The notes under the pieces were generated by a model. That model did no database searches and was not told the origin of the DNA. It saw only the letters and a list, made by a program, of their open reading frames with translations. The position numbers and the translations under genes are program-made. A DNA stretch of 20,790 bases, from IMG/VR virus record IMGVR_UViG_3300005253_000142, positions 1 to 20,790 of that record; one strand, written 5' to 3'. This DNA is from a virus. Positions 479 through 20,016 of the stretch are shown piece after piece (the first letter of the stretch is position 1; each line of letters opens with the position of its first letter).

Positions 479-506
479 ATTACCCTCCGTCTGTCTTAAT
501 CTGTGT

Positions 507-546: not shown

Positions 547-569
547 GACCGTTGTGCTAGTACTTCTCA

Positions 570-695
570 CTAGCTCCGCCTACTAGAGCGTCTTATGGTC
601 AATATAATGTTTTCCATCTCACGTATGACAATTCCCTCAGGTCTCACAGGGAGAAGATGATCGTATTTCGGATACGTGGATATAGGTATATTCAT
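570..695 (-). CDS. Small hypothetical protein (41 aa) between hub and fibre genes
   Basis: The ATG at 693-695 is preceded by a very strong SD (AAAGGAGG, 7 nt upstream). The frame runs 41 codons to a TAG at 570-572. The product begins MNIPISTYPKYDHLLPV and ends in a basic run (RRSSRRS). Its ATG overlaps the stop of the preceding 30-codon ORF as ATGA, the junction type used by proven genes in this operon such as portal and protease. I recognise no family and see no signal peptide or membrane segment. The case rests on the SD, the coupling and the fit into a gap that would otherwise be empty. It may be a small tail-tip or regulatory protein. Confidence 0.6.
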   Translation of the reverse strand: MNIPISTYPKYDHLLPVRPEGIVIREMENIILTIRRSSRRS

Positions 696-784
696 GAACG
701 AGCCTCCTTTCTAGCTCTTAGCTTTAAGCGCTCCAGGAGACGCAGAAACTTTCCACTAGGTCTTATGGTTGCTAGATGGTCCAT
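692..784 (-). CDS. Tiny basic ORF (30 aa) coupled to the hub gene
   Basis: The ATG at 782-784 shares its A with the hub gene's TAA stop (TAATG). The ORF ends in TGA at 692-694, which overlaps the ATG of the next small gene (ATGA). The product is MDHLATIRPSGKFLRLLERL plus a Lys/Arg-rich tail, which would be one amphipathic basic helix. Having both ends in the junction format of this operon is hard to explain by chance. It may nevertheless serve mainly to carry ribosomes from the hub gene to the next gene. No family is recognised. Confidence 0.5.
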   Translation of the reverse strand: MDHLATIRPSGKFLRLLERLKLRARKEARS

Positions 785-1896
785 TACGCTCCAATCACGG
801 ATTCTTCGGGTAGTACTAAAAGTTCTGCGTCTACGATTCCAGCTTCTGGGTTAAGTTGCAGTCCTAAAACCCTACAAACCCTTATCAACGAACTACCCAT
901 GTCTATGTCTGACAACCTTACTGTTATAATATCTCCCACGCCAAGTTTAGCCATGTCAATTTCCGACTCAATCAATTTAGGCGATAGTTGTTCCCGTGTT
1001 TCCACCGGAAGATCGTATAATTTTTTGGCTCCAGCAAAGAGAGCCTCTTGATTAGATACCTGCCTAGTCCATATAACAGTAGTACCCTCCAGTATTGGAG
1101 ACAGAGACGACGGACGAACAGGGCCTCCAGAGAGTTGTCGCCCAGAAATACTACCCTCTGTACGGCCACTTGTAGAAACTTGAACAGCATCTCGATCAGC
1201 GACGCTACCGCTCCCACCTATTACTACAGCCGTTCCTAAGAAGCCCTCCGCGTCTTCGGTAAGGGTGACCTCTTTGAAGTCCTGTGTCTGCTCAAATATA
1301 ACCTCAGTACGACGATCTAGTCCTTGTTTACCCTTCCAGACAAGAGAAGTATGTAACTGTGTACCTATCGGATCATGGCGTAACAACCATTCCCACCCAC
1401 TAAAGTCTGCTAGGGTACCGAGGAATTCTAGAAAAGATTCTGCTTGGGGTTGATAAGTTACTACTGGACCACCTTTCTGCTCTAACTGAACTAGTAGTGG
1501 AGGCTCGGCTCGTCTTTCAATATCCCCAAATATCTGGGTTAGGATATCCCCAGATGATGTAGAAAGTTCCGACCAATCCTTCGGTAATCGGGCTCGTTCA
1601 AATAGTGCTCCAGCATGATCTGTACATACAAAGTTAATTTTGGGCGCCCCAGCTCGTACAACACGTCTATTAACGAAGCCTACAAATGGGAGTACTCTAT
1701 CTGATCGTTCTATACTTACCATGGCTCCTATACGCATAATACCTGGGTCTAGACTAGGCTCTGAACGCGCCACCTGAAAACTGCCAGTTGCTGGCTCCAT
1801 TAGTTTGAACCCATACGCGAGGTTAGTCGAACGAACCTCAGCTAGTATCGAGTGGGGCGGAAAAGGGTTACGAAATCGAACTACAGTAGTTACCAT
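784..1896 (-). CDS. Baseplate hub / tail-associated protein (ReqiPepy6 Gp37-like)
   Basis: This 370-residue protein lies directly after the Dit-like gene, where siphophages encode the Tal/hub protein that closes the tail tip. The N-terminal part (residues about 1-90) has the beta-barrel pattern of tail hub proteins: GSFQVARSEP, then IMRIGAMVSIERSD and LPFVGFVNRR. The middle (about 130-170, ESFLEFLGTLADFSGWEW) fits the second hub domain. The C-terminus (IIRVCRVLGLQL-type segment, about 320-365) returns to the barrel. The overall pattern resembles the siphovirus ReqiPepy6 Gp37-like family, a recollection that I could not search. The start lies 1 nt after the preceding TAG with a GAAGG SD. No peptidase or lytic domain is visible, so any cell-wall enzyme is elsewhere. 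Confidence 0.75.
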   Translation of the reverse strand: MVTTVVRFRNPFPPHSILAEVRSTNLAYGFKLMEPATGSFQVARSEPSLDPGIMRIGAMVSIERSDRVLPFVGFVNRRVVRAGAPKINFVCTDHAGALFERARLPKDWSELSTSSGDILTQIFGDIERRAEPPLLVQLEQKGGPVVTYQPQAESFLEFLGTLADFSGWEWLLRHDPIGTQLHTSLVWKGKQGLDRRTEVIFEQTQDFKEVTLTEDAEGFLGTAVVIGGSGSVADRDAVQVSTSGRTEGSISGRQLSGGPVRPSSLSPILEGTTVIWTRQVSNQEALFAGAKKLYDLPVETREQLSPKLIESEIDMAKLGVGDIITVRLSDIDMGSSLIRVCRVLGLQLNPEAGIVDAELLVLPEESVIGA

Positions 1897-1897
1897 A

Positions 1898-7278: not shown

Positions 7279-7535
7279 TACTTAGGAACCTCTTTTACAG
7301 CAATACCAGACTGTTGCAGGCGTGCCTTCCACGTAGCACTTCCTATTTGCGAGGCATCTGCTATCCTAGGCCGAGCTGCCGTCATAAGGTAACTCATCCA
7401 GGACTGACGATTCGCTCGAGCTTCCTTCATACCTGCGGTAGCTCCATATGTTGCTGCTTGCGCTTGTAGTATTGTAACCTCCGCCAAGTGCTGATCAATG
7501 TTTTGTACGTAAGCAGCCCACACATTAGGAGGCAT
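7278..7535 (-). CDS. Tail assembly chaperone, downstream (T-like) frame made by -1 frameshift
   Basis: Read alone this frame gives 85 residues (MPPNVWAAYVQNIDQHLAEV...) beginning 2 nt after the stop of the upstream chaperone, with no convincing SD at that ATG. The same frame is open upstream, without a stop, as far as the T8 tract at 7639-7646 inside the upstream gene. A -1 slip there would give a fusion of about 237 residues (117 from the upstream frame, about 120 from this one). This is the G/GT arrangement of phage lambda and most siphophages, in which the rare fusion recruits the tape measure protein to the tube protein. The ORF ends in a TAATG overlap with the tape measure gene. The shift itself is inferred. 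Confidence 0.8.
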   Translation of the reverse strand: MPPNVWAAYVQNIDQHLAEVTILQAQAATYGATAGMKEARANRQSWMSYLMTAARPRIADASQIGSATWKARLQQSGIAVKEVPK

Positions 7536-7537
7536 TC

Positions 7538-7990
7538 TTAGCTGCTCTTCGTAGCCGATCCCGCAGTAGAAGGAGACCTTTGTGAAGTAGCCACTAAGAT
7601 CTCCCTCTGGAAGGCTACCGATTGCGCCGCCTGCTCGGAAAAAAAATCCATGATAGCCATCTGCTGTGTATCATCGAGTTTCACCCGCTCCTCTTTAGGC
7701 ATGGATGGCATTACGATATCCAAGAACTCATTGAGGGAAGTTCCCATCTCCTCAACAACCTTATCTATTTCTACTTCCTTCTCCTCTTCGGACATTTCCT
7801 TATTATCCTGTACTTCGGCCATACGATTACCATAGCTAATGAACTTCGAACCCAGTCTCTGAGCTACAGCCGCTTTTTGTAGTCCTAGATGCTTAGGAAG
7901 AAGAAGAGGGTAACTATCCGCCCCTAGTTTAATGCGTGGCGCCGACGCCGTCAGGTCGTCTAGGTTGAGGGTATTGTTCTCGTTTACCAT
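7538..7990 (-). CDS. Tail assembly chaperone, upstream (G-like) frame
   Basis: This 150-residue, mainly acidic helical protein (NKEMSEEEKEVEIDKVVEEM at 63-82) lies between the major tail protein and tape measure genes, the canonical place of tail assembly chaperones. The N-terminal half (IKLGADSYPLLLPKHLGLQK) resembles actinophage-type chaperones that begin with a short beta region. The start is the ATG at 7990 with an AAAGGGG SD 5-7 nt upstream, inside the end of the 83-residue ORF. Codons 115-118 are GAT TTT TTT TCC, which carries the slippery site. The last 33 residues of the unshifted product are Ser/Thr/Ala-rich, as expected for a tail under little constraint. Confidence 0.85.
   Translation of the reverse strand: MVNENNTLNLDDLTASAPRIKLGADSYPLLLPKHLGLQKAAVAQRLGSKFISYGNRMAEVQDNKEMSEEEKEVEIDKVVEEMGTSLNEFLDIVMPSMPKEERVKLDDTQQMAIMDFFSEQAAQSVAFQREILVATSQRSPSTAGSATKSS
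7639..7646 (-). other. T8 slippery site for programmed -1 frameshifting
   Basis: The minus strand reads GAT TTT TTT TCC in frame within the upstream chaperone, which contains the heptamer T-TTT-TTT in the correct phase for tandem -1 slippage. It is the only homopolymer of this length in the coding part that I noticed. The -1 frame is open from here to the stop at 7278. The re-paired codons would be Phe-Phe in both frames. I see no strong stimulatory hairpin directly downstream. Confidence 0.8.
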
Positions 7991-8180
7991 TGTGAGCCCC
8001 TTTCGCTACTGAGGCCGTAGAAGCCTCTGCTTCTTGCGCCTCTTTTAGAGCCGTAAGTGCTCTCGTTGCTTCCTTCGCTGTACGGGTAAGGGCCTTAAGC
8101 TGTCGGATGTGGTCAGGAATAGTGGCGGCACCAAGATCCATCGACACCGTAGCTAGAGGCTCCTTACCCGTGCAACACAT
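7929..8180 (-). CDS. Hypothetical protein (83 aa) between tube and chaperone genes
   Basis: The ORF starts 1 nt after the stop of the major tail protein (TAAC-ATG) and ends 62 nt inside the chaperone gene, thereby filling the 190-bp gap between them. The predicted product has a central Ala/Lys/Glu-rich helix (IRQLKALTRTAKEATRALTA at about 25-44) that could form a coiled coil, and a basic Pro-rich end (PQPRRPDGVGATH). SD support is weak for the first ATG. An internal ATG at 8141 is an alternative start. The position suggests a tail assembly accessory protein, but I recognise no family. Confidence 0.6.
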   Translation of the reverse strand: MCCTGKEPLATVSMDLGAATIPDHIRQLKALTRTAKEATRALTALKEAQEAEASTASVAKGAHNGKREQYPQPRRPDGVGATH

Positions 8181-8181
8181 G

Positions 8182-8751
8182 TTACGCCGTCTGGGCGATT
8201 AGCCTACCAAACTTCTCAGCTGCAGTAGGCGCGCTCTGGTCGGCTAGTGCGTGGAACTCCACCGGAATTAGTGTCTTACCATCCTTTACGAACGCTGGTC
8301 CGATGTTTCCGGCTTGAACTGCGCGCGGTACTTCGAACTGCATGTTCGATGCAGTTCCCAGAACGTAGGGGGAGCTAGTCCTGAACAGCAATGCCATCTC
8401 TGTAACGACACCTACCCCGCGATACAAGGTGTTCGTCTTGATCGCCGGGGGGCCTGCCGCAGTAACAGGATCCTGGCGGTCGAAGGCGTTGCCGAGGTTT
8501 TCAAGAGTAGCCTCCGCTAGGTTTGCTACGATCTGTAGATCCTCTTCTGAGATCGTAGCCTTTATGGGACCGGATTCGTCGTCGACGCGGTGCTCGTCAA
8601 GGGTCTGGTTTAAGTTAACCGTAACACCTCCGTCGACGTCGCCAAGGCTCTCCCAGTTCCCTGCAGGAGTAGTATCCACATCAGGGAACGCTTCTCCCAC
8701 AGGGGCTACGAATAGCTCCCCCGAACCCACTAGAACTGACTCAAAAGCCAT
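8182..8751 (-). CDS. Major tail tube protein
   Basis: The 189-residue product has the look of a siphophage tube subunit. It starts SVLVGSGELFVAPVGEAFPD, continues with W33, LG and GVTVNLNQ, and has a TATISEED-like strand followed by LAEATLENL (about 66-86). The rest is beta-rich with a hydrophobic strand FEVPRAVQAG near 140. About 190 residues is normal for this fold. The gene has a strong SD (AGGAGGT, about 6 nt from the ATG) that fits a highly expressed protein. It follows the tail terminator and precedes the chaperones, which is the standard order. The subunits stack as hexamers around the tape measure protein. Confidence 0.85.
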   Translation of the reverse strand: MAFESVLVGSGELFVAPVGEAFPDVDTTPAGNWESLGDVDGGVTVNLNQTLDEHRVDDESGPIKATISEEDLQIVANLAEATLENLGNAFDRQDPVTAAGPPAIKTNTLYRGVGVVTEMALLFRTSSPYVLGTASNMQFEVPRAVQAGNIGPAFVKDGKTLIPVEFHALADQSAPTAAEKFGRLIAQTA

Positions 8752-8763
8752 TACTTACCTCCT

Positions 8764-9195
8764 CTATGCTGATAATGCTTCTGCCTGTACGAAACTCTCC
8801 ATGAAGGCGAGCATGAACGGTTTATTCAGGACTTCATCATATAGTACTGTTCCACCAGAAGAAATCCAGATCGACAAAACCCTCCCATCGTTCGCAGATA
8901 TGTTGAGTTTCCCGTTAAGAAGCCGGTACACTCTCCAGTACACCTGCGCGGCATCTTCCTCAGTTGCTCCGTAACAACGAAGCTCGAACCTGGGACGGAT
9001 GATCACTTCCTGGTATATTTCTCGAGGACCACCCGCAATTCTAATAGTGACAGCGTTATCTAATTGAGCACTCCCTGGTGGTAGCAACCCCCCAAAGATT
9101 CGCTTGTCAACTAGGTTGGTAAGATCTACTTGATCTAGTAGATACTGTACTACTATTCCAACCGGATCAACAATTTCTCCCGTTAGCGTGGCCAT
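8764..9195 (-). CDS. Tail terminator / tail completion protein
   Basis: The 143-residue product (MATLTGEIVDPVGIVVQYLL, then PREIYQEVIIRPRFELRCYG and VYWRVYRLLNG) has the alpha-beta pattern of tail terminator proteins (lambda gpU / DUF3168-like). It carries the characteristic helix after an FELRCYG strand. These proteins cap the tube and join it to the head. It lies between the gp10-like neck gene and the tube gene, the usual place. The ATG shares a base with the preceding TAA (TAATG). The family is assigned from pattern and position. Confidence 0.75.
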   Translation of the reverse strand: MATLTGEIVDPVGIVVQYLLDQVDLTNLVDKRIFGGLLPPGSAQLDNAVTIRIAGGPREIYQEVIIRPRFELRCYGATEEDAAQVYWRVYRLLNGKLNISANDGRVLSIWISSGGTVLYDEVLNKPFMLAFMESFVQAEALSA

Positions 9196-9626
9196 TAGAT
9201 CTTGTGCCTCTTTATGGTGTCGTCCACATTACCCGAGGCTGCTTGAAACGCCGGTTCCACATACGGATGAAGGAGCTCTTCGTAGATGGCATAGAAGGTA
9301 GTACCACCAACAGCAAGAGCTACTACGTTACCGCGTCTCTCTGGCCGAGGTACGGGATGCCCCAAGTCTCGACTCTCTGCTGCTTGTGTACGATCACGGA
9401 CTTCACTTGGGCGATCTACCTTAATAGACCTCATAAGTACACCAGAGATGATGTGTACAATCGACTTCGCAATAATCATCACATCCTGAGCGAAGTCCAT
9501 AACAATGTCTTCGGTTGCTCGTCTAACTCTGTCCTTAACACGCGTACCCTGCCAATTGACATCGACGAACATGTTGAAGGTAACTGCACCACCAGGTAGT
9601 CTACCGATGTTAGCTAGATTAGGCAC
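9195..9626 (-). CDS. HK97 gp10-like neck / tail completion protein
   Basis: The 143-residue protein contains a long N-terminal helix (RVKDRVRRATEDIVMDFAQD), then SGVLMRSIKV and a C-terminal YAIYEELLHPYVEPAFQAA. This closely follows the HK97 gp10 pattern in which a Y-x-x-x-E-x-x-x-x-P motif precedes a helix. The start is a GTG directly after the TAA of the head closure gene, with a GAGGG SD. It sits between the head closure and tail terminator genes, so it probably acts at the head-tail junction. It is slightly larger than typical because of a charged loop at about 75-97. Confidence 0.8.
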   Translation of the reverse strand: MPNLANIGRLPGGAVTFNMFVDVNWQGTRVKDRVRRATEDIVMDFAQDVMIIAKSIVHIISGVLMRSIKVDRPSEVRDRTQAAESRDLGHPVPRPERRGNVVALAVGGTTFYAIYEELLHPYVEPAFQAASGNVDDTIKRHKI

Positions 9627-10016
9627 TTAGAATACCCTCTCACCTATTACATTCAGGTGGTGTGAAGACCTCTTCTCGGCTGGGCGTATTAGAAGGATGT
9701 TAATAGGACCAGGCTCCAAAACTACACCATTGGTAAACTTAACATCCACAATCCGATCCTGTTCTGTAATGTCTAAACCGCGTGGGAGAATAACTCTTAC
9801 GACCCGCTTTACCGACTCTTTTAGACCCACGTTCGACGCCTCACCTACAGTACCTCCCATACCACGAACGTTACTCACTTGTGGAACGAGTCGACAAGGT
9901 ACATCCTCTGCGTGAGGCTGCCAGGAGGATTTCATATTAGTATTGTACGAACCCCTGATCGTCTGAGCATCCCGCTCAATAGTACAAGTATGTATCATCA
10001 TCCCATTGATACTCAT
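9627..10016 (-). CDS. Head closure / head-tail joining protein
   Basis: I choose the ATG at 10016, which overlaps the previous stop as ATGA and has GGAGG about 10 nt upstream. The frame is open further upstream to 10109, but that part lies antiphase inside the preceding 68-residue gene. The 129-residue protein starts MSINGMMIHTCTIERD, has W33 before EDVPCRLVP, and later VILPRGLDITEQDRIVDV, NGVVLEPGPI and HHLNVIGERV. This order is typical of SPP1 gp16-like head closure proteins, which form a small beta-barrel ring. It lies between connector and neck genes, as expected. Confidence 0.8.
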   Translation of the reverse strand: MSINGMMIHTCTIERDAQTIRGSYNTNMKSSWQPHAEDVPCRLVPQVSNVRGMGGTVGEASNVGLKESVKRVVRVILPRGLDITEQDRIVDVKFTNGVVLEPGPINILLIRPAEKRSSHHLNVIGERVF

Positions 10017-10219
10017 AACGCGACGGCCTCCGTAGACAAGATCCTCACAGAAGGGTCTGTTGCGAGCCATCTCACCGGAACGTCCCCAGTAACCGAAGCA
10101 AAGGTCCACCCTAAGAGATCTCCAATGACAGCGACCTCTATAGGCACAGTATATTCAATGTCCTCCCAAACGTGGCCATTGAACCTTTGTACTGGACCCA
10201 TTACCTCGACAAGTTGCAT
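10013..10219 (-). CDS. Hypothetical protein (68 aa) in the head-tail connector block
   Basis: The ATG at 10219 shares a base with the TAA of the preceding gene (TAATG) and has a GAGGAG SD. The stop overlaps the next ATG (ATGA). It is thus coupled on both sides and very likely real. The product (MQLVEVMGPVQRFNGHVWED, then VPIEVAVIGDLLGWTF and DVPVRWLATD) is a compact beta-rich protein without Cys. I do not recognise the family. Its neighbours suggest a small virion or assembly protein. Confidence 0.75.
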   Translation of the reverse strand: MQLVEVMGPVQRFNGHVWEDIEYTVPIEVAVIGDLLGWTFASVTGDVPVRWLATDPSVRILSTEAVAL

Positions 10220-10554
10220 TATCTCCTCAAAGCAATTAGCTCTACGTCGGTATCAACACTTACGTCTACATTTATCTTCGCGTTCGGCTGGTTCCACTCT
10301 CCTTGAGGGAATGGACCGAATTGCTGATCTATACCAGCTGCGATAGACTGACTCACGTCTCCTACTCGTCCGTGAGAGCAGGAAACGGCAATGATATCTA
10401 CTACTGTTGCTCCGGCGCCACCATTCTTCACAACGAGAACGGTTCTCCCGTCGTTCACGAACTCATGGTTATTGGCTGCGTCGGCAGGAGTATTCGTTAG
10501 TATTGCGGTACCGGCTCCTGCGGGTGGTTGTACTGGAACATCTACTCTAGGCAC
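10219..10554 (-). CDS. Small phage structural protein, beta-sandwich type (111 aa)
   Basis: The start is GTG with AGGAGG 6 nt upstream. The product has the pattern NHEFVNDGRTVLVVKNGGAG (about 29-48), then a strand-rich middle and FGPFPQGEWNQPNAKINVDV (about 79-98), ending in short strands. Phage head-tail regions often carry a small protein with a DGRTxLxVKNGG turn and a GPFPxxxY/W segment. I read this as that family, possibly a decoration or neck-decorating protein. The exact role is not known to me. It overlaps the next gene as TAATG. Confidence 0.65.
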   Translation of the reverse strand: MPRVDVPVQPPAGAGTAILTNTPADAANNHEFVNDGRTVLVVKNGGAGATVVDIIAVSCSHGRVGDVSQSIAAGIDQQFGPFPQGEWNQPNAKINVDVSVDTDVELIALRR

Positions 10555-10564
10555 GTGTCGCCTC

Positions 10565-11098
10565 CTATCCTATAATCAAGAAGTGTTGGAGCTTCGACAG
10601 CACATTCTCTCGTTCCCTCTCCCAATTATCTGGAGACTTGTACGAGTAGTCTTGCTGTCCAACAGTTTCTTGCTTCATAACCTGCCGCTCAATAGAGATC
10701 CGGCAAAGCTCTAGTAGTATACGTTGCCTCTCAAACTTGTCGTCCTGTGGTGTATACGTGATGACTACATGTGGTTGCCATTCGATTGTAATACCGAGCG
10801 TAGCTATACGTTCTAATCTTCCTTCGTTCGGCCACACTCTATAATCAGCTACTGCTAGGGCTGTCTGAGTAATTCCGTCGCCTTCTGTTACAGACGAGAC
10901 CGAGAAGATTCTCCGAGGGAGAAACACGTTACACTCTTTTTCGGAGTCGATGGTCTCTATCACTGTACCATCTTCAGCATGTACCCCGAACCGGCGAACA
11001 ATCTCAGCTTCCTCCTCGTTAATGATTTGACCGAGGGGAGCATCACCCAGATCGGTTCGTATTCGGCTCTTGATTTCCTCTACGCTTATTAGAGCCAC
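10565..11098 (-). CDS. Head-tail connector / adaptor protein (gp6-like)
   Basis: The 177-residue protein begins with a helix (SVEEIKSRIRTDLGDAPL) and continues IINEEEAEIVRRFG, a beta region (NVFLPRRIFSVSSVTE, DYRVWPNEGRLERI, HVVITYTP) and a C-terminal helix (ERQRILLELCRISIERQVMK). This helix-beta-helix order is typical of HK97 gp6/SPP1 gp15-like adaptors that bind beneath the portal. It lies after the capsid genes and before the head closure gene. The start is a GTG with a GAGG SD. A possible overlapping ORF and a long hairpin lie just upstream. Confidence 0.8.
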   Translation of the reverse strand: MALISVEEIKSRIRTDLGDAPLGQIINEEEAEIVRRFGVHAEDGTVIETIDSEKECNVFLPRRIFSVSSVTEGDGITQTALAVADYRVWPNEGRLERIATLGITIEWQPHVVITYTPQDDKFERQRILLELCRISIERQVMKQETVGQQDYSYKSPDNWERERENVLSKLQHFLIIG

Positions 11099-11207
11099 GA
11101 CGCCTCTTTCTCTGTTCCTTTGGGGGAGAGCCCTGAGGGGCCATCTCCATCCTCTCAGGGTCTCCCCCTAGGAACCTAGCGACTGTCTCCCTAGCCGCTC
11201 TTAACAT
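11043..11207 (-). CDS. Possible small basic protein (54 aa) overlapping the connector start
   Basis: The ATG at 11207 lies 5 nt after the stop of the decoration-like gene, and the frame runs 54 codons to a TGA at 11043. It overlaps the connector gene by 56 bp. The product starts MLRAARETVARFLGGDPERM and ends in a strongly basic, Asn-rich tail (KEQRKRRRGSNKRRGN). The SD is weak, and the ORF contains the long hairpin at 11114-11175. It may be a real small gene or only the region between two genes. The hairpin alone could explain the conservation of this stretch. Confidence 0.35.
   Translation of the reverse strand: MLRAARETVARFLGGDPERMEMAPQGSPPKEQRKRRRGSNKRRGNQEPNTNRSG
11114..11175. other. Long imperfect stem-loop between capsid and connector genes
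   Basis: The two arms (11114-11140 and 11151-11175) can form 24 base pairs around a 10-nt loop, interrupted by one bulge and one small internal loop. The inner arms contain GGGGGAGA and CCCTGAG against CTCAGGG and TCTCCCCC. No T tract follows on either strand, so it is not a standard intrinsic terminator. In a leftward transcript it would separate highly expressed capsid genes from the connector genes. RNase III processing, 3'-end protection or attenuation are all possible. Confidence 0.7.
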
Positions 11208-11212
11208 CCGAC

Positions 11213-11653
11213 TTAGAGGGCCACCTTGACCATCTGAGCCACTTCTGCAGCCACTTGAACCACAGGAGCGTGACGTCCCCGATATCGAATCGAGACGACT
11301 CCACGTACTCGAGCAACAGCGACTGCGTCGGTCACCTCGATGCGGATGAACTCTTCTGGCATGTTACCATGTACGTCGATGGCGTAGATCCTGTTGTCAC
11401 CCGTGTCGTCGATCAGAACCAGGGTGGCGCCAGGAACATCTGTAGGCGAACCGAACGCCGCTAGAGCATCAGATGTAATCTTGGCTATGATCGTACCGGT
11501 AGCAGCGATCGCACCTACAGACATTAGGAATAGACATCCGTCGTAATCCGACATATCTAATGCGTCGCCGTTAGCTGTACCGGCGGCCGAGACCGAAAGG
11601 GGAGCAATATCCTGGTTAAGCAGGACGTGCTCAGACAGGTCGTGAACTTGCAT
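11213..11653 (-). CDS. Probable capsid decoration / head-stabilising protein
   Basis: The 146-residue protein lies directly downstream of the major capsid gene with a strong SD (AGGAGGT). It starts MQVHDLSEHVLLNQDIAPLS and is almost wholly beta-strand-like: GDALDMSDYDGCLFLMSVGA at about 29-48, TLVLIDDTGDNRIYAIDVHG, and FIRIEVTDAVAVARVRGVVS near the end, followed by RYRGR. I recall phage structural proteins with this DxxxYxGCLFLxxVG and YxIDVHxP-like pattern in this position. Position and size support a decoration role, though I recognise no exact family. Cys38 is the only cysteine. Confidence 0.65.
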   Translation of the reverse strand: MQVHDLSEHVLLNQDIAPLSVSAAGTANGDALDMSDYDGCLFLMSVGAIAATGTIIAKITSDALAAFGSPTDVPGATLVLIDDTGDNRIYAIDVHGNMPEEFIRIEVTDAVAVARVRGVVSIRYRGRHAPVVQVAAEVAQMVKVAL

Positions 11654-11691
11654 TACGCGTTACCTCCTATCTACTAACCTTCGTTCAGGGT

Positions 11692-13005
11692 CTATGCACC
11701 TGTACGAGTAAGGGTTCGGAACATGTAGCTTTGTGTCACTTGGCCTCCGAGCCGTCGTGTCAGAACATACCCGATCTGGCTTTGTTCCGCGTATCTTTCG
11801 TCGAGTCGCTGGATTTCCATATCTAAGCGGTCGAAGATCCAATAACCTCTCATGTCACCGAACAGCATCACTACGTTGTTCTGGGCGTCGGCGGGCATGA
11901 ACTCCGAGCTGAATACCGGTCGACCTAGGATAGTACCAGGTGCTCCAGCAGACAGTCCTGGCTGCCAGATGTACTGGTTCTGGGTGTCCTTAACCTTCCG
12001 GATCTTCGCTTCAACAACAGATCGCATGATCCAAATCCCATTACCGCGATACTGTTGAGCGACCGCATAGAACGCGTCGATGATAGGGTCCGCAACGTCA
12101 GTAGTATCGAGAGCTACGAACACAGCGTCAGTGTTTCCGATACCCGAACCGGAGTCCAAGATACCTGCAGGGCGTTCGACTCCGTTCCCTGTGAGGAACG
12201 CCTGATCTTCGGCCATTGCTACCGCCTCGGCGTACAGCATCGTAATCAGGGACGTCACGTCTACTGCCGAGTCAAGGAGGAGATCCTTTGAGACTCGAGT
12301 CTTAGCCATCATCTTGTTGATCGGAATGCGCTCTTGGCCGAACGCCGGATCGGTCAGCCCCTTATCATCAGAGGGAGTCTCCTCGATCCACGTGATCCGA
12401 ACACCGGAGGTAAACATGTCGTCTCCACCAGTAACCGTCGGAACGGTAACCACGTCACGACTTGTCTGTCCAACTGTCGCGCGTTGGCGAATAACAGTCA
12501 GACCCGGAATGCGCTTAATCAGCTCTGCACGGAAGTCCTCCGGCACGAGGAAACCTCCAGCTGCTTCAGCGCCCTCAGTCAGTACACGCACCTCGGCTTC
12601 TCCTAGAGCGGCCTGGCCGTAACGTAGGAATCGATTAAATGCGTCACTCTGTGCTTTCCTCTCAGGACTCTGTCGACGATTCTCCCGGCGACTCTCGTCG
12701 GCTGCAGGCGTAATCTTTCGGGTCTCTCCATCTTCCTCTTCGTCTTCACCTTCCTCGTCATTGGAGCTTGAACCCCGAAGATGTTCCTCGATACCATCCT
12801 CGATAGCCTTACGAGTATCGCGGGTCTTCTTGAGCTTGTCCGCCTGCCCCTTCGTTTCGGTGTGCTTCTCCATAAGCACATCGACCCGGCCCTCGTCTTC
12901 TTCACTCAGGCCTTCATCTGAAGCAGCATTGATGATCTCTCGAGCCTCAGTCAAGAGGGCGAGAGCTTGTTCAGACAAACGCCGCTCCGCTTCCATAGTG
13001 GGCAT
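11692..13005 (-). CDS. Major capsid protein, HK97 fold with N-terminal delta domain
   Basis: The 437-residue protein has two parts. Residues 1-125 are charged and helical with a Glu-rich linker (SSNDEEGEDEEEDGE at 80-94), the typical delta domain that acts as scaffold and is removed by the protease. From about 126 on, the pattern is the HK97 capsid fold: GAEAAGGFLVPEDFRAELI at 145-163, FGQERIPINKMMAKTRVS, AEAVAMAEDQAFLTGNG, GIWIMRS, LGRPVFSSEFMP and VMLFGDMRGYWIFDR. The SD (GGGAGGT) is strong. Protease and portal lie immediately upstream. The likely cleavage site is between about 115 and 145, but I cannot fix it from sequence. Confidence 0.95.
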   Translation of the reverse strand: MPTMEAERRLSEQALALLTEAREIINAASDEGLSEEDEGRVDVLMEKHTETKGQADKLKKTRDTRKAIEDGIEEHLRGSSSNDEEGEDEEEDGETRKITPAADESRRENRRQSPERKAQSDAFNRFLRYGQAALGEAEVRVLTEGAEAAGGFLVPEDFRAELIKRIPGLTVIRQRATVGQTSRDVVTVPTVTGGDDMFTSGVRITWIEETPSDDKGLTDPAFGQERIPINKMMAKTRVSKDLLLDSAVDVTSLITMLYAEAVAMAEDQAFLTGNGVERPAGILDSGSGIGNTDAVFVALDTTDVADPIIDAFYAVAQQYRGNGIWIMRSVVEAKIRKVKDTQNQYIWQPGLSAGAPGTILGRPVFSSEFMPADAQNNVVMLFGDMRGYWIFDRLDMEIQRLDERYAEQSQIGYVLTRRLGGQVTQSYMFRTLTRTGA

Positions 13006-13008
13006 TAC

Positions 13009-13818
13009 TTACCTCCCTTCGGCTTCTACTATAGCAAGCCGCGCTCTCGACCGTCGGAGCCTCGCTTTACCGTCACGCTTCTTATTTTCATTATCACCGT
13101 TGGAACTGTCAGAGGAACTGGTACGCTGTTGATTTACTTCTTCTTGCCTCCCTTCGTCCCCTTCATTTTCGGTTTCTTGTGACCTCCCATTAGAAGTATC
13201 TCCTTCCTTTACCTGTAGATGAAAGTGTCCTTCATCGTTAATTCTTGCGAGGTCGGGAATCTGTACCAGAAATCGCTCCACTATCTCGTCTGCGAGCGAT
13301 TGTACATCAGGCATTCGACTTCGTGTACCGCCAATAACTGCTAGAGCGTTAGCTCCGAAGGTCACAGGTGATACGTCGAACAACTCCACCTCTGTGAAGT
13401 GTAACGTAGGTTCGTCGTCATCATCGCCACCCTCATCAACACTCATCTCAGTCTTCACACGACGAAAGCCGATGCTATTATCCGTGAGCGCCCCATCCTG
13501 AACGAGAGTAAGTATCTCATTCCCGAGAGGAGTATCACTGACTCTCCCTTCGAACTCAAGGCCTTCCTCTCCCTCACGTAGTCGAGTGAGCGTACCTATT
13601 ATCGACCAGGCATCATGGTTGAAGAGGAATTTAATCTTCCCTTTTCCAGCACTGAACTTGTTACGGATAGTCTTCTTAAACGCTCCCTTGTCGAACACCG
13701 TTCCGAAAGCATCTTTGTTGCCAAACACGTTAGCCAAGCCAAAGATACGTCTCTTCGCTAGGTCAACTCGTAACTCAGTAGACACGGAGCGATACTCAAC
13801 CGTATCTTCCTCACTCAT
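13009..13818 (-). CDS. Prohead maturation protease, HK97 type (U35)
   Basis: The 269-residue protein contains the expected catalytic elements: His68 in FLFNHDAWSIIGTL, Ser115 in TDNSIGFRR, and the following ELFDVSPVTFGANALA block (143-160). It would cut the capsid delta domain and itself inside the prohead. The catalytic domain ends near 165. The remaining 100 residues are hydrophilic (Glu-, Gln-, Ser- and Arg-rich, ending RLRRSRARLAIVEAEGR), probably a scaffold-like or self-cleaved tail. The ATG overlaps the portal stop as ATGA and follows a GGGGAGGT SD. The gene ends 3 nt before the capsid start. Confidence 0.9.
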   Translation of the reverse strand: MSEEDTVEYRSVSTELRVDLAKRRIFGLANVFGNKDAFGTVFDKGAFKKTIRNKFSAGKGKIKFLFNHDAWSIIGTLTRLREGEEGLEFEGRVSDTPLGNEILTLVQDGALTDNSIGFRRVKTEMSVDEGGDDDDEPTLHFTEVELFDVSPVTFGANALAVIGGTRSRMPDVQSLADEIVERFLVQIPDLARINDEGHFHLQVKEGDTSNGRSQETENEGDEGRQEEVNQQRTSSSDSSNGDNENKKRDGKARLRRSRARLAIVEAEGR

Positions 13819-15209
13819 ACTACCTCCCCTTCTACTACGTTTACTTCCTCAAGTAGGTGTGTTTCTACCACGTTGAAGAGCTTATGGTACCTCACCTCGC
13901 CTAAACGTTCAATAAGCGTACGTACTGTGGGAGGAGCTGCCTTCTCTGTCTTATTGCCTGGAATCAGGAACACATCTCCTCCGTCAACAGGTTCTTTACC
14001 AATCTCCACGAGGAACATGTTAATAGTAATCCCCCCAGTATTTAGTGCTTGCGTGGTCCTCTTCCAGAGTGCACTCACGTCTTCTCGAAGGGCTCTCACG
14101 TTGGACAGGTCGAAGTACGACGTAGCTCTAATGTCTGAAGGGAAGTCAGGGAAGATGAGGTCCTGATCAACCCTACTTGCGTGCCGAGCAAAGAGAGGTG
14201 AGAGTGTCTCATCCCAGAAAGAAGTCTTAGCCGCACCATAGTTGGTATAGGTAGACCGTTTCAAACCTACGTTCGACCCTACGAGAATGGGAGGAACTCC
14301 TAAGGCCATACAGATTCGCGTTTCTGGTACATCACGGAGAGAGCCCATATCCATCTCACGAAAGTTTAACCCGATCTTCACGTATGAAGCATCCTCATCC
14401 ATAACGGCAGGAGCGTGCCAACCAGTTAAGCCACTGTATCGTGACTGCCACCGCTTCATAATCCGATTAGCTTCTCGCTGGTCATTTAGCTTTCGCTTCA
14501 CCGTGATGATACCAGAAGGTACACCAGCGTTATCGAAGAACACCTTTATGAAGTCGGTTGCGTCGTTGTCTAGTATAGTGTTACGAAACGCCACTCGGAG
14601 AGGCGACATCCCCTGCTGGTAAATAGCCGTTGGATCTACTCCATGCTTGAAGGGGATCATGTCGTCTAGAGGAATGGGGATATCATTCCTACTTGTAAAT
14701 GATCCATCTGGAGAGTAGAGATAGAAGGACTGTGCTACGTTCTTCTTAGGTACGAATCGCACCCAGTCAGGGCGGAGAGTCCACAACGCTATAGGTCTTC
14801 CGACGTCGTTGCGCTCCTTCCAGTTATAGCAGTTACCATCAATATGCTCGATAGTAAGTACAATCTCCCAAAACTCCTGAGCAGATGCAATAATGCGATT
14901 AGGATGGTTAATAAGCTCAAGAGCAGGATGGTCAGGTACTGGAATGCGTACTCCAGCACCTTGCACTCCCACCATAAAAGGGGCCTCACTCACAGAGGTG
15001 GCGACCTCGCGAATACAAGCGTAGACTAGTTCGTTCTTGCGGTAGCCGTTATCAGTGAGTGATCTGTACCCTGAGGTAGGAAATTGTGGATTATTCATCC
15101 GCCAGGTCTCGAAGAGTTGTAGTCCCTGCCTAACTTCTGAGGTGCGGTCTCGAAGTAGATCGATAGTATCTTGGGCAGTACCCTTGATGAAGTCGGTGAC
15201 TCTAGACAT
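13815..15209 (-). CDS. Portal protein, HK97 type
   Basis: The 464-residue size and motifs fit the HK97-like portal family: YACIREVATSVSEAPFMV (63-80), NHPNRIIASAQEFWEIV (101-117), MIPFKHGVDPTAIYQQGMSP, AFRNTILDNDATDFIKVFFD with GVPSGIITV, CMALGVPPILVGSNVG and TNYGAAKTSFWDETLSP. The protein forms the dodecameric ring at one capsid vertex through which DNA is packed and to which terminase and connectors bind. The start is an ATG with a weak GATAGG SD. It lies after the large terminase and couples to the protease gene. Confidence 0.95.
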   Translation of the reverse strand: MSRVTDFIKGTAQDTIDLLRDRTSEVRQGLQLFETWRMNNPQFPTSGYRSLTDNGYRKNELVYACIREVATSVSEAPFMVGVQGAGVRIPVPDHPALELINHPNRIIASAQEFWEIVLTIEHIDGNCYNWKERNDVGRPIALWTLRPDWVRFVPKKNVAQSFYLYSPDGSFTSRNDIPIPLDDMIPFKHGVDPTAIYQQGMSPLRVAFRNTILDNDATDFIKVFFDNAGVPSGIITVKRKLNDQREANRIMKRWQSRYSGLTGWHAPAVMDEDASYVKIGLNFREMDMGSLRDVPETRICMALGVPPILVGSNVGLKRSTYTNYGAAKTSFWDETLSPLFARHASRVDQDLIFPDFPSDIRATSYFDLSNVRALREDVSALWKRTTQALNTGGITINMFLVEIGKEPVDGGDVFLIPGNKTEKAAPPTVRTLIERLGEVRYHKLFNVVETHLLEEVNVVEGEVV

Positions 15210-15281
15210 CCTATCTTCTATTCTAGCCGGAAACAGCTAAACCGTCAAGCTTCTGCTGTCCTCGAAAAAGAGCCTTAGTAG

Positions 15282-16694
15282 TCAAAGCCAGATCCCCTGC
15301 CCAGGAGCGTCGTTATCAATCAGCTCGTTAGCGAACGCCATCACAATAGCGTCAGCTTCGTTGGGGCTATCTAAGCCCTTCTTACGCATATCTTCCTTGC
15401 TCTCCATCTTGATAACTGTGTGACCCTTATAGGTTCGGTGCTCATACTTTTGCTCGATAAGCTGTCCCTCAAGGATCTCGTCTCGGGGAAGTTGAATATC
15501 TCCCTCACCTAGAATCGTACGTAGGTGCCAATAGGCTTCGGCCCGGAGGTTCAGATATGAATCCTCTTCCATTGGAGAACTAGCTCCGTCGTATTCAACC
15601 AGCTTATCACGAATCTTCTTCCGCTTCTTGAGGTAGTCGAATACTGCTGCTCCAAGTCCTCCACCCATGTCAATAATTACTTCGTCCGGCTCAAAGTTGA
15701 GGAACTCGTCGTATACTAACTGCTCCGTCTGAGGAACACTATTCTGATCCGACTTAAGCAAGGCATGTATCTTGTTACCTTCACGAAGGCAGATGATCGT
15801 TCTATCTGAACCATACCTAGCTGGGTCAACTGATAGGACCCGCTTAGCCTTCTTCACAGGAGTGAGTTTGAGCTCCATTGCTCGCTCAACCCAACCAGGT
15901 GGAATCAGTCTATCTTCGGAGACCTCGATCAGCAAGCCTTGTACGCGGATCTTGTATAGCCAGGAGTCCTCACCCCAAACAGCCTTCCTACCTTTAATCC
16001 ACGCGTGGCTTACCTGTTTGCCACCAGTGTTTATAGCTACATCTTCAGCATTGACGTGGTGAATCCTCCATTGATTCTTCTCAGCCTTTCTACCGCACAC
16101 TCGATAGAACTTACCCGTTACATCTGAAGGAGGAGTCGAGAGCATCAACATCTTTGCTTCCGCCGAGGACATTCCACCTGCCATAGCGTCGAAGATCTTG
16201 TCCGGGACCGCCTTGGACTCGTCTACTATATACAATATAGAAGGCGCGTGATAACCTTCAATCTTCTCCGGCTCGTCAGTTGATTCACCTACTGCGTACC
16301 ACTCCTGCTCGATCTCCAAACGTACATCCAGGAGTTTATAGGGAAACACCCAACCCATCTTCGAGAGATCCATTCGGCGATTCCACTTGTGTACTTCCGA
16401 CCACAAGAGGTCAGATACCTGCCGCCAAGTAGGTGCAGTAGTGATAACCTTAGACTCGTTGCGGGTGAACATAAACCAGAGTAGCGCCCAAGCACCTAGA
16501 GCGGTCTTACCTACTCCGTGACCTGTATGAGCAGCTACTTGTGGAAACTCACCAAGATCTACTAGGATATCTGCTTGATAGGGCCAAGGTTCAATTCCGA
16601 TGATCTCCCGCACAAAGAAGAGGGGCTCTGCCTTCGCTTGAAGAAACGTAGCAGACTGTTCAGCTAGTAGTGATGGTACAGTATCACTTACCAA
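15282..16694 (-). CDS. terL: Terminase large subunit
   Basis: The 470-residue packaging motor has all its key sites: Walker A HTGHGVGKT (56-64), Walker B LYIVDE (154-159), coupling motif STP (186-188), and three acidic nuclease positions, D290 in LSVDPARYG, D342 in VIIDMGGG and D448 in PNEADAIVMAF. The ATPase drives DNA into the prohead and the nuclease cuts the concatemer. The start is TTG: in-frame TAG TAG lies just upstream, AGG precedes it, and the adaptor-like residues FVREIIGIEPWPYQADIL (27-44) lie close behind. It overlaps the small ORF upstream by 11 bp. The strategy (cos or headful) cannot be read with confidence. Confidence 0.97.
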   Translation of the reverse strand: MVSDTVPSLLAEQSATFLQAKAEPLFFVREIIGIEPWPYQADILVDLGEFPQVAAHTGHGVGKTALGAWALLWFMFTRNESKVITTAPTWRQVSDLLWSEVHKWNRRMDLSKMGWVFPYKLLDVRLEIEQEWYAVGESTDEPEKIEGYHAPSILYIVDESKAVPDKIFDAMAGGMSSAEAKMLMLSTPPSDVTGKFYRVCGRKAEKNQWRIHHVNAEDVAINTGGKQVSHAWIKGRKAVWGEDSWLYKIRVQGLLIEVSEDRLIPPGWVERAMELKLTPVKKAKRVLSVDPARYGSDRTIICLREGNKIHALLKSDQNSVPQTEQLVYDEFLNFEPDEVIIDMGGGLGAAVFDYLKKRKKIRDKLVEYDGASSPMEEDSYLNLRAEAYWHLRTILGEGDIQLPRDEILEGQLIEQKYEHRTYKGHTVIKMESKEDMRKKGLDSPNEADAIVMAFANELIDNDAPGQGIWL

Positions 16695-16851
16695 CTACTA
16701 CCTCAGTGTCCCTAGCCCACTTATAAAATCTATACATTATTAGCGTACCTAGGTGTTTAGCCTCTCGAAGAGTTAGGTTAGTGTGTATACGAATCTCCCT
16801 TGTAAGACTACCCGCGGTGAGGTTAGGGTTTTCGAGAAGATTCTTAAGCAC
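16684..16851 (-). CDS. Small hypothetical protein (55 aa) between the terminase genes
   Basis: A GTG at 16849-16851 lies inside the last codons of the small terminase and is preceded by GAGGT about 8 nt upstream. The frame runs 55 codons and ends inside the start of the large terminase. It therefore fills the 149-bp gap between the two genes exactly, and overlaps both. The product starts MLKNLLENPNLTAGSLTREI and contains LTLREAKHLGTLIMYRFYKW, which suggests two amphipathic helices. No family is recognised. Its position suggests a terminase accessory or DNA-binding protein. The evidence is fit, SD and amino-acid character only. Confidence 0.6.
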   Translation of the reverse strand: MLKNLLENPNLTAGSLTREIRIHTNLTLREAKHLGTLIMYRFYKWARDTEVVVGK

Positions 16852-17521
16852 CCTGACCTACCTCTACCACCTCACCTTCAACAGTATTATCCTCTTCCTT
16901 AGGGGCGGGCTCCTGCAACCGACGTGCTTGATCTACCTGCCCCATAAACTTCATGAACTGCTCTGGATCTGCAAACATGATGTTGTCCCCAATATGGCCT
17001 ACACCGCTTCGAGCACCTTCTCCGGTACCCGTTTCTGGATCGATCCCAAGAGCCTTAGCCTTACTAGATGCTGCCTTAGAGGCGAGGTTGAGGAGGGTCT
17101 CGACGTCCTTAGGGGTTAGGATCTCAATCCCCTCTAGCTGTTCCCAGGCCTCTCGGAAGATACCGTCCATGCGTTCGCAGTACTCTAATAGTCCTTCCTT
17201 CTTCTTCGCCTCGTCGGCAAGGACCTCGCGAGTGCGCCTGTACCACTTGACATCATTCTGTACCACCCGATACAGGGGCATGTGATAACCTTCCAGTAGG
17301 TGGGAGAAGAGTGGATCAGCCTGAATCCGCTTTACGATCTCACTAGACGGCAAACCCTTAGCATGGAGAGTCTGAACGATCTCTCGGCGCAGATTCATAT
17401 CGTCAGCACTAACCATAGGTCTTCCTTTTCTATTAGGATCACGTGTGCCTCCACCATTCGGGTTGGAATGGTAGATAGGATTCTTAGCCTTCTGATGTGA
17501 GTCTCGATGCTCATTCTTCAT
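16844..17521 (-). CDS. Probable terminase small subunit
   Basis: The 225-residue protein precedes the large terminase as expected of TerS. Residues 1-35 are disordered, Asn/His/Arg-rich (GGGTRDPNRKGRP). Residues about 43-100 look like a helix-turn-helix (LRREIVQTLHAKGLPSSEIV, then YRVVQNDVKWYRRTREV). Residues 100-160 form helices suitable for ring assembly, and the C-terminus is acidic. The role is DNA recognition and loading of TerL. The start is uncertain. The ATG at 17521 has no SD but lies 7 nt after a TATAAT, as in leaderless messages. An ATG at 17416 (residue 36) has a good AAAAGGA SD. I keep the longer form because the N-terminal residues resemble basic TerS tails. No family search was possible. 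Confidence 0.7.
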   Translation of the reverse strand: MKNEHRDSHQKAKNPIYHSNPNGGGTRDPNRKGRPMVSADDMNLRREIVQTLHAKGLPSSEIVKRIQADPLFSHLLEGYHMPLYRVVQNDVKWYRRTREVLADEAKKKEGLLEYCERMDGIFREAWEQLEGIEILTPKDVETLLNLASKAASSKAKALGIDPETGTGEGARSGVGHIGDNIMFADPEQFMKFMGQVDQARRLQEPAPKEEDNTVEGEVVEVGQGA

Positions 17522-17636: not shown

Positions 17637-17987
17637 GTGAATACCGAAGGTAGATTCGTAGCACTGGACACAGAAGAGGCACAGGAGGTAATGTCGCATG
17701 ACTCCTCCAACAGGCGAGGGAGAGTGAGCTACCCCATTCTTAAGGGGTTCCTCGAGAGTGGTATGGATGTTGCGAAGCTCAATCGTGAAGGACTCAATCA
17801 TCCGGCGATGCACTACCACACACTGCTCAAGATGTACATAGAGGGCCATAACATGCCAGTAGCACTCAAACTACTGAATGGAGAGCTCTACCTTATCCGT
17901 AAGGAGTACGCAGAGCAGAACGAGGAGACTAATGACGAACAGAAGGAAGCGCCAAAGCTCACAAAGGCAGCTCTCGCCAAGGCGTAA
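17637..17987 (+). CDS. Hypothetical protein (116 aa), first gene of the rightward unit
   Basis: The GTG at 17637 is set by AAGGAGG 9 nt upstream and by a promoter at 17576-17604. The protein has a core RRGRVSYPILKGFLESG (26-42), then HYHTLLKMYIEGHNMPVAL (about 59-77) and LLNGELYLIRKEY, and ends in an acidic then Lys/Ala-rich tail. Small phage proteins with a FLESG segment and an (L/H)-x-x-x-x-P-V-x-L-x-x-x-N-G-x-L-Y-L-x-R ending occur near TerS genes of several phages. They have no known function that I can name. The shape could suit a small winged-helix DNA-binding protein. It overlaps the next gene by 56 bp if that gene starts at 17932. Confidence 0.85.
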   Translation: MNTEGRFVALDTEEAQEVMSHDSSNRRGRVSYPILKGFLESGMDVAKLNREGLNHPAMHYHTLLKMYIEGHNMPVALKLLNGELYLIRKEYAEQNEETNDEQKEAPKLTKAALAKA

Positions 17988-19437
17988 GGCATTGGTAGTG
18001 ACAGCCAGTCTCTATAATGAGACTGAGCTGTTCACTATCTTGCGGAAGCTAGCCGCTGCAGACATCGACTGGGATATTGTTGCTCGCCGTCGAGTAATCC
18101 GTGCGGAGAAAGGCAACACCGACGAGTTCGAGGTAGACTATCTCCTACGGGAGTTCGATCCCAAAACCCTGGACCAATACTGTGCGGTCATCTTTACTAG
18201 TGGAGAAACCTCCGAGACTAGACATATGTGGTTCAGTCAGGAGATCAAAGAGATCGCCGAACGGGCGTCGGAGCAGGAAATACCTATCGGAGCAGTATGC
18301 TGTGCAGCTCCTTGTGTACGGTACATTGCTAAAGACCGTCGTGTAACAGGATTTCCCCTTCACGAGATACTCACCCTATTCAAATCCGCAGGAGCACATA
18401 TCACAGGGAGATCGGTTGAGGTAGATGGCACTCTTGTTACGGCGGAGGCAGAGATACAAGTCCTTGACTGGATGAATGCCATTATAGATCTCACCAACGG
18501 GCGACAGCCTACGTTGTCCTCCGATGACGCACATAAGTGGTTCCCCTTTTGGCGTGGAGTCCCTGACTCAGGCAAAGATCTCCTACGTAGACCGTTCCAT
18601 GCCGGATTTACGGGAACGACGGCGGACGAGATGCTTCCTGTGATAGACAGCGAGTGCAGGGGGGATCGTATACTACTACCCTTTACGGGCTCGGGGAAGG
18701 AAATATCTATCCTAGCACGTGAAGGAAGAACCATAACCTCGTTTGATACTCTCTTCTTTAGCAAGATGATTGTCCAAGGTATCTTCGCGGGGGAAGAACT
18801 CGCTAGCAACGAGATAAACCAGTCTATTAAGGGGTGGGCCTATCTTAATCGTCCCATACACGTAGACGAGGAGAGTGCCCAATTCATCGATACAGTAGCA
18901 CAGACAGGAGAGCCATATCGGCTAGCTGCTCTAGGTATATCCATAATAAGGTGTACCATGCGAGGTAGACTAGATGGATGGATCGGCTCTGTAGAACAAC
19001 TAGAGGATAGCTACGACGCTGCCCTTGCACGTAATCGGGAGTGGTTTCAACTTCCTGGACGACTCGTACATTACCATAATAATGTGCTTGGAAAGGAAGG
19101 ACGGAGCATTACGGACCATCCCTGGGACACGATGATAGTCGACCCCCCGAAAGTAATAGGACGTACGGACATCTACTCGGAACGGTATGCAATGCTTGAT
19201 AGTTGCCTCTCACAGGAGGACGTAGAACTTCCTATCTGGAAATCCGAGGGCTACATTGACCGGATACGGGAGCTGCTACAAATCCCCTGGAAGAGATGTC
19301 TGTTCATGTATACCACGGGAGTTAGTCCTACGGTCGAGGAGATAGAACGCCTGCTACACTCCGTAGGCGAGATTGTCGGTAGGTACCAAGTGTTACGCAC
19401 GAGCAGGAAAGACATCCTGTATGTGGTCGAAAAGTAA
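17932..19437 (+). CDS. DJ-1/PfpI-like domain fused to a DNA methyltransferase-like domain
   Basis: Two domains are joined in 501 residues. The first (about 19-185) follows DJ-1/PfpI amidotransferase-fold proteins: strand KALVVTASLYNETEL, strand YCAVIFTSGE, the nucleophile elbow IPIGAVCCAAPC (Cys123), then RRVTGFP and VEVDGTLVTAE. The usual His after the elbow Cys is Cys here. The second (about 200-501) looks like an alpha-class SAM-dependent DNA methyltransferase: motif X-like HAGFTGTTADEMLPVI (223-238), motif I RILLPFTGSGKE (246-257), and motif IV VDPPK (403-407), where canonical N6-adenine enzymes have DPPY. The start is unsure. The ATG at 17932 has GAGGAG at a short 4-nt spacing; TTG 17992 and GTG 17998 are alternatives but would clip the first strand. 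DNA modification is inferred. Confidence 0.8.
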   Translation: MTNRRKRQSSQRQLSPRRKALVVTASLYNETELFTILRKLAAADIDWDIVARRRVIRAEKGNTDEFEVDYLLREFDPKTLDQYCAVIFTSGETSETRHMWFSQEIKEIAERASEQEIPIGAVCCAAPCVRYIAKDRRVTGFPLHEILTLFKSAGAHITGRSVEVDGTLVTAEAEIQVLDWMNAIIDLTNGRQPTLSSDDAHKWFPFWRGVPDSGKDLLRRPFHAGFTGTTADEMLPVIDSECRGDRILLPFTGSGKEISILAREGRTITSFDTLFFSKMIVQGIFAGEELASNEINQSIKGWAYLNRPIHVDEESAQFIDTVAQTGEPYRLAALGISIIRCTMRGRLDGWIGSVEQLEDSYDAALARNREWFQLPGRLVHYHNNVLGKEGRSITDHPWDTMIVDPPKVIGRTDIYSERYAMLDSCLSQEDVELPIWKSEGYIDRIRELLQIPWKRCLFMYTTGVSPTVEEIERLLHSVGEIVGRYQVLRTSRKDILYVVEK

Positions 19438-19554: not shown

Positions 19555-19597
19555 TAAATTGATGGAGAGCAAGCTAGCAAGGAAAGGATCAAGCATC

Positions 19598-19822
19598 GTG
19601 GCAGAGCAAGAGCAAATCGATACGCGATCGCACTACGCCAAGTACACTGTCGCACACAAGAAGTACGAGCATAGCGAGAAAGGCAAAGTGGCTCGTGCGA
19701 AGTACATGTCGAGCGAGAAAGGCAAAGCAGCTCGCAAGCGCTACCAGGACAAGCGCAACGCTGAGATCAAGCAACTGCTGAAGCACGCCCGCGAGAGCGG
19801 AGCGGACGCTCGGACTAACTAG
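19598..19822 (+). CDS. Small basic protein with SEKGK repeats (74 aa)
   Basis: I choose the GTG at 19598, which has AAGGAAAGGA 9 nt upstream. Upstream starts at 19559-19562 lack an SD and coincide with the predicted transcription start. The protein is very rich in Lys, Arg, Ala and Glu. It carries two copies of KYxxSEKGKxAR (residues 22-33 and 35-46), then KRYQDKRNAEIKQLLKHARE. I recall short phage proteins with tandem Y-x-x-S-E-K-G-K-A-A-R-K-R-Y units, sometimes next to HNH-like segments, but without a known function. No Cys or zinc site is present. The charge suggests nucleic-acid binding. The codon use is slightly more GC-rich than that of its neighbours. Confidence 0.8.
   Translation: MAEQEQIDTRSHYAKYTVAHKKYEHSEKGKVARAKYMSSEKGKAARKRYQDKRNAEIKQLLKHARESGADARTN
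19661..19738 (+). repeat. Two 39-bp direct repeats in the SEKGK gene
   Basis: Two 39-bp units (19661-19699 and 19700-19738) both begin AAGTAC and both contain AGCGAGAAAGGCAAAG (19673-19688 and 19712-19727). They encode the 13-residue protein repeat. The near-identity at DNA level points to a recent duplication. Confidence 0.9.
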
Positions 19823-19889: not shown

Positions 19890-20016
19890 TCAATCACCCC
19901 TTACCCAATCCACTACCCTTACCCAATCACTACCCTTACCCAATCACTCACCCAATCACTCACCCAATCACTCACCCCTACCCAATCACCCAATCCCTTA
20001 CCCTACAATTTCCCAC
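19890..20016 (+). repeat. G-less C-rich tandem repeat, CCCAATC units
   Basis: The + strand has not a single G in 127 nt. Within it are seven copies of CCCAATC, starting at 19904, 19922, 19939, 19951, 19963, 19981 and 19989. The best-kept unit is the 12-mer CCCAATCACTCA, and several units are joined by CTACCCTTA. The minus strand at 19981-20003 has the pattern GGG-N3-GGG-N3-GGG-N5-GGG, a canonical G-quadruplex motif. As RNA, the C-rich G-less stretch would suit a Rho loading site. As DNA it could be an iteron set or single-strand initiation site. No coding potential is credible here. Confidence 0.9.

Follow-up and report, generated by a model that had tools for sequence, protein, structure and literature searches.

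Modifications of the 7-deazaguanine type protect phage DNA from restriction, and Cui et al. reportedly described in 2023 a dPreQ1 methyltransferase, DpdM, with a fold that had not been seen before in nucleic-acid methylases. The phage 7-deazaguanine systems combine the genes FolE, QueD, QueE and QueC with DpdA, and the paper that describes them makes no mention of a SAM methyltransferase (PMC6884629). DpdC, of the DUF6884 family, for which Montevideo is named, is described as an amidohydrolase-type enzyme (PMC11888242; PMC6884629). Another phage system leads to carboxymethylcytosine through CmoX, a homologue of C5-cytosine methyltransferases with an SPPC motif, and CmoY, an ATP-dependent ligase (PMC12783734). 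One member of the DJ-1 superfamily, isocyanide hydratase, adds water to a C-N triple bond by way of a thioimidate on its Cys, and an Asp serves as the acid/base (PMC10971408).

The window analysed here, a stretch of 20,790 bases that makes up a virus record and is probably an incomplete one (a fragment), carries a gene in which a DJ-1/PfpI domain is joined to a methyltransferase domain. The methyltransferase family and the domain fusion are new, while 7-deazaguanine modification of phage DNA is already known.

The fusion gene and its surroundings

The fusion gene occupies positions 17932..19437 on the plus strand and is an open frame of 501 codons plus stop, in agreement with the sequence-only reading, which had described two domains in a single unbroken frame. 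GAGGAG is located 4 nt 5' of the ATG. The linker between the domains (18490..18594, plus strand; residues 187-221) lies between the end of the Pfam match and residue 222, at which the alignment with the stand-alone homologues starts. Since the DJ-1 half and the C-terminal half are each supported and share one frame, an obvious frameshift artefact is disfavoured, and the fusion is strongly supported as genuine. It comes from a single metagenome record and did not turn up a second time in the searches. One of the observations that the earlier reading had named as counting against it, homologues in which the two halves are always separate genes, is partly borne out: all relatives detected are stand-alone methyltransferase-like genes, and the DJ-1 domain is absent from all of their records.

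Upstream, an ORF of 116 residues without a family match (17637..17987, plus strand) runs 56 nt into the fusion gene and is a possible operon partner, perhaps co-transcribed. On the minus strand, positions 1-17521 hold a siphophage-type module for head and tail, with terminase, portal, protease, capsid and tape measure genes; the phage is unclassified. Its nearest relative, L002, has a capsid protein with 66% identity and the next ones are at about 30%; the part of L002 that was read contains structural genes only, without the fusion region. On the 3' side of the fusion gene, a very basic ORF of 87 residues (19559-19822, plus strand) has a weak match to a PHROG endonuclease VII (E=0.06), and further downstream short tandem repeats with the units ACCCAATCACTC and a 17-mer occur at 19890-19989, in non-coding DNA.

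Features of the two domains

In the N-terminal half, residues 18-186 (17983..18489, plus strand) matched the Pfam family DJ-1_PfpI (PF01965) with E=1e-14 and 55.1 bits against a cut-off of 26.6, which places the domain in the DJ-1/PfpI superfamily, as had been proposed. The PfpI model TIGR01382 (E=1.4e-6) and NF040823 stay below their cut-offs, and the NCBIfam deglycase models score far under theirs. The active site was compared with 22 cellular (actinobacterial) PfpI-type proteins, a set that is biased to the PfpI type because it was drawn from the best-scoring PF01965 matches. In the nucleophile elbow, A121-V-C123-C124-A-A-P (18292..18312, plus strand), Cys123 falls in a column that is Cys in 21 of the 22 proteins, so that the nucleophile is kept, while the column of Cys124 is His in 21 of them; the earlier description of a retained Cys followed by a His-to-Cys change is therefore correct. 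An alignment with PH1704 gives the same register, and Cys124 was rejected as the nucleophile because the register P-x-x-x-[IV]-C places Cys123 in the Cys column. A further change, which the earlier reading had missed, lies in the segment N29-E-T-E32 (18016..18027, plus strand), where Asn29 stands in the column that holds the catalytic Glu in 20 of the 22 PfpI-type proteins, and Glu32 is conserved. Both the catalytic Glu and the post-Cys His of PfpI proteins and deglycases are thus replaced, which makes standard deglycase or protease activity unlikely as judged from these residues. What remains is Cys-only chemistry or an inactive domain, and the loss of Glu and His could mean the latter.

The C-terminal domain comprises residues 222-501 (18595..19434, plus strand). 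Sequence searches of Pfam, PHROGs, NCBIfam and PDB recovered no match to it, for Pfam, PHROGs and PDB even at E=10. The motifs quoted in the sequence-only reading are present, and exceed what chance would give, since nine loci encode relatives of the whole domain (E down to 1e-50) with an invariant DPPK. They are PFTGSG at residues 250-255, within the SAM-binding loop of motif I, PFTGSGKE (18679..18702, plus strand; family consensus PF[TA]G[ST]G[KR][DE], also aligned by hhalign to D12 methyltransferases), and VDPPK at residues 403-407 (motif IV; 19138..19152, plus strand), which is invariant in the six aligned family members. Between them, S-F-D-T (18739..18750, plus strand; SWDT in the relatives) ends strand 2, residues 67-72 of the modelled domain, with an acid that would correspond to motif II and bind the SAM ribose.

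An AlphaFold2 model built from a six-row family alignment is of middling quality (pLDDT 61.7, pTM 0.65): its core is confident, but the helical insert that connects strand 2 with strand 3 is uncertain. The single-sequence model was uninformative (pLDDT 35.5). E. coli Dam takes the first eight places among the Foldseek matches of the modelled domain in PDB, the best with E=8e-6 and prob 1.00, and VIA-align gives Z of 14-16 to many SAM methyltransferases with no single family standing out. RlmO and related RNA methyltransferases are also among the fold matches, and the viral structures matched include DNA methyltransferases of phages and giant viruses. The family profile scores 34.35 in hhalign against a profile of 18 D12 methyltransferases, where the maximum in 200 column shuffles was 25.4. 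The predicted model has a Rossmann fold with motifs I and IV at strand ends, as in class-I SAM methyltransferases, and together with the structural matches and the D12 profile score it strongly supports the assignment to this class, closest in shape to Dam, as well as the methyltransferase-like nature that had been proposed for the second domain. It does not place the domain within the D12/Dam family, of which there is no Pfam match and in which all 18 methyltransferases compared have DPPY instead of DPPK. Fold match 15, the BFVD entry A0A8S5SJK3, is a siphovirus protein named 'Amidoligase enzyme' with a methyltransferase-like fold, and may be a further case of a methyltransferase joined to an enzyme that forms amides.

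DPPK had been read as an altered DPPY, but every family member has it, as does motif IV of E. coli RlmI (VMDPPKF), so that it need not mean a dead enzyme, and its interpretation as a damaged motif was rejected. RlmI is an active methyltransferase despite DPPK. In enzymes of the RlmI type the catalytic Cys is expected at the position of the conserved segment LFMYTTGV of the present family, and a C5-cytosine mechanism of that type was rejected because the segment has no Cys.

Stand-alone relatives and their operons

Searches with the full protein, by peptide patterns and tblastn, found no match in viral contigs, genome contigs, phages or plasmids, and a scan for the AVCCAAP elbow hit 119 contigs, with no relative among the loci examined. 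A degenerate DNA pattern for PFTGSGKE gave 15 matches in viral contigs, out of which three are true relatives (L164, L175 and L176), matching the fusion protein in phmmer with E=6e-53 and about 35% identity across the whole C-terminal domain. An alignment-based scan brought in L182, L183, L185 and L186. The family now has nine loci in seven viral records and four lineages, with 64-87% mutual identity and 34-35% identity to the fusion protein. The search of 50,697 phage records yielded no relative, and about 1,190 genomes of three phyla gave only weak local matches at chance level, one of which (L162) was inspected and is not a methyltransferase. The family, with its invariant DPPK, is previously undescribed and absent from the libraries searched.

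In all seven related records (nine loci, four lineages), the methyltransferase-like gene lies within a preQ0 (que) block. QueC adjoins it or is near it on the upstream side wherever that side is covered. After it, every locus has DUF6884, QueD and FolE, with a QueE match everywhere except in L185, and then MazG; where the record extends far enough, a DpdA-like gene and a DNA polymerase are found further downstream. Pfam matches identify QueC (PF06508, E=8e-54), QueD/PTPS (4e-21), FolE (2e-51) and DUF6884 (2e-21), and QueE was assigned by its radical-SAM match and by homology. The stop of the methyltransferase-like gene overlaps the start of the DUF6884 (DpdC-family) gene, in the form TAGTG, TAATG or ATGA or by about 47 nt; the two genes are therefore probably translationally coupled and their products made together. 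The phages share a replication block and form one syntenic group, so that this context counts as one conserved arrangement and not as several independent events.

Pfam gave no match for the DpdA-like protein, which owes its label to homology with proteins encoded in que clusters elsewhere among phages rather than to a DpdA model. Relatives of it occur in Cellulophaga phage phi13:1 and Bacillus phage BSP7, in both cases within an annotated que cluster. With this transglycosylase, DpdA-like by homology, and the preQ0 synthesis genes, the relatives' records contain what characterizes a 7-deazaguanine system. Members of the DpdA-like family, for which Pfam has no model, lie at 4066-4821 in L175, 13907-14659 in L182 and 4854-5621 in L186, and their homologues in Cellulophaga and Bacillus phages are mostly annotated as hypothetical proteins; some of those in Bacillus phages go under the names polynucleotide kinase or integrase.

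Proposed function, alternatives and comparison with known systems

As its stand-alone relatives lie within 7-deazaguanine operons, the fusion protein probably helps to make a further-decorated guanine in phage DNA. For the phage of the window this link comes solely from homology, since the 20.8-kb window is a fragment with no que or dpd genes in it, and at about 35% identity to the relatives the function could have shifted. Most simply, judging from gene context, the family would supply the tailoring methyltransferase of phage 7-deazaguanine DNA modification. FolE, QueD, QueE and QueC would make preQ0, a DpdA-like transglycosylase would put it into DNA, and a DpdC-family protein would act on the 7-substituent of the inserted preQ0. 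The most likely substrate of the methyltransferase domain would be the 7-deazaguanine in phage DNA or its 7-substituent, and methylation would be an added activity in the relatives, because all of them already have a DpdC-family gene.

In the fusion protein, the Cys of the DJ-1 domain might, without the usual His and Glu, perform DpdC-type chemistry on the 7-substituent, such as a thiol-mediated nitrile hydration. This assignment is speculative; action on a 7-cyano or 7-amido group would be chemically reasonable because isocyanide hydratase belongs to the DJ-1 superfamily. The fusion would then stand in for the gene pair of methyltransferase and DpdC, and the replacement of DpdC by the DJ-1 domain is likewise a speculative, gene-swap argument drawn from a single fusion. 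Taken as a whole, a two-domain DNA-base-modifying enzyme of the 7-deazaguanine pathway, with the DJ-1 domain doing the work of DpdC, has in our judgement about an even chance of being correct. Rather unlikely is the more specific version, in which one polypeptide makes a new base, the DJ-1 domain converting the 7-cyano group to an amide or a derivative in place of DpdC and methylation following, to give a hypermodified guanine not yet reported.

Several other explanations were considered. The protein may be an orphan Dam-like N6-adenine methyltransferase against restriction, with DJ-1 as an accessory or structural domain and with relatives in 7-deazaguanine operons merely because both protect DNA. 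The rank of Dam as top Foldseek match and the D12 profile score above all shuffles speak for this account, but the invariant DPPK, against DPPY in every D12 methyltransferase compared, and the position of the gene inside the que block, coupled to a DpdC-family gene in all lineages, make it rather unlikely. The methyltransferase domain could also be an adaptor that binds SAM and flips the base without methyl transfer; the partner to which it presents the modified guanine would be the DJ-1 domain here and DpdC in the relatives. While such a role would agree with the fact that the whole family lacks the aromatic residue with which motif IV stacks on the base, and with the constant pairing with a second catalytic gene, we hold it to be improbable: the glycines of motif I and the acid of motif II are kept, as in active SAM enzymes, and RlmI is active with DPPK.

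A role of the DJ-1 domain as a deglycase or as a redox or chaperone-like stress domain, in a fusion that coordinates DNA repair with methylation, is very unlikely; members of the DJ-1/PfpI family frequently carry the annotation deglycase, but with Asn29 for Glu and Cys124 for His the deglycase set is not conserved, in line with the low scores of the deglycase models. Least credible is a route in which carboxymethyl is taken from Cx-SAM and then amidated by the DJ-1 domain, to give a CmoX/CmoY-like or Mom-like product; the sequence-only reading had put forward, as a speculation, the transfer of a carboxymethyl-like group and its amidation, as known from Mom. A route from carboxymethyl to amide does exist in phages (PMC12783734), but CmoA was not found in the window or in eight related records (all of them fragments, and CmoA of the host could serve), CmoX and CmoY are unlike either domain of the fusion, and the relatives lie in preQ0 operons; with a different set of enzyme families and no CmoA found, the route is disfavoured. 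The broader hint of that reading, that more than plain methylation takes place, is supported.

If the 7-deazaguanine reading is correct, the family would add to the few tailoring steps known for this base. In each of the seven related records it is embedded between queC and a gene of the DpdC family, from which a further tailored base is predicted. The fusion with DJ-1 suggests that the same position of the base is also worked on by a second enzyme fold, unrelated to the first.

Compared with the phage 7-deazaguanine systems (PMC6884629), the stand-alone family members are alike in lying inside such operons, beside a DpdC-family gene, while in the window que and dpd genes are lacking and the gene is fused to DJ-1. 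The CmoX/CmoY system likewise consists of phage enzymes that combine SAM-type transfer with carboxyl chemistry on a DNA base, but its enzymes belong to other families and no CmoA was found here (PMC12783734). PfpI and isocyanide hydratase share the DJ-1/PfpI domain and the nucleophilic Cys elbow, whereas the fusion has His replaced by Cys and Glu by Asn and an attached methyltransferase, and in isocyanide hydratase the general acid is Asp (PMC10971408). E. coli Dam and the D12 family resemble the C-terminal domain in predicted fold, in the order of motifs (I, helical insert, IV) and in a weak profile similarity, and differ in having DPPY for DPPK, in the lack of a Pfam D12 match and in operon context. 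The RlmI-type rRNA m5C methyltransferases have in common with it DPPK as motif IV and a Rossmann methyltransferase domain, but the fusion family has no Cys in LFMYTTGV and its context is that of DNA-modification operons. Like DpdM, the fusion protein would methylate 7-deazaguanine in phage DNA, and it would do so with a Rossmann-fold methyltransferase domain, whereas the fold of DpdM is said to be a new one.
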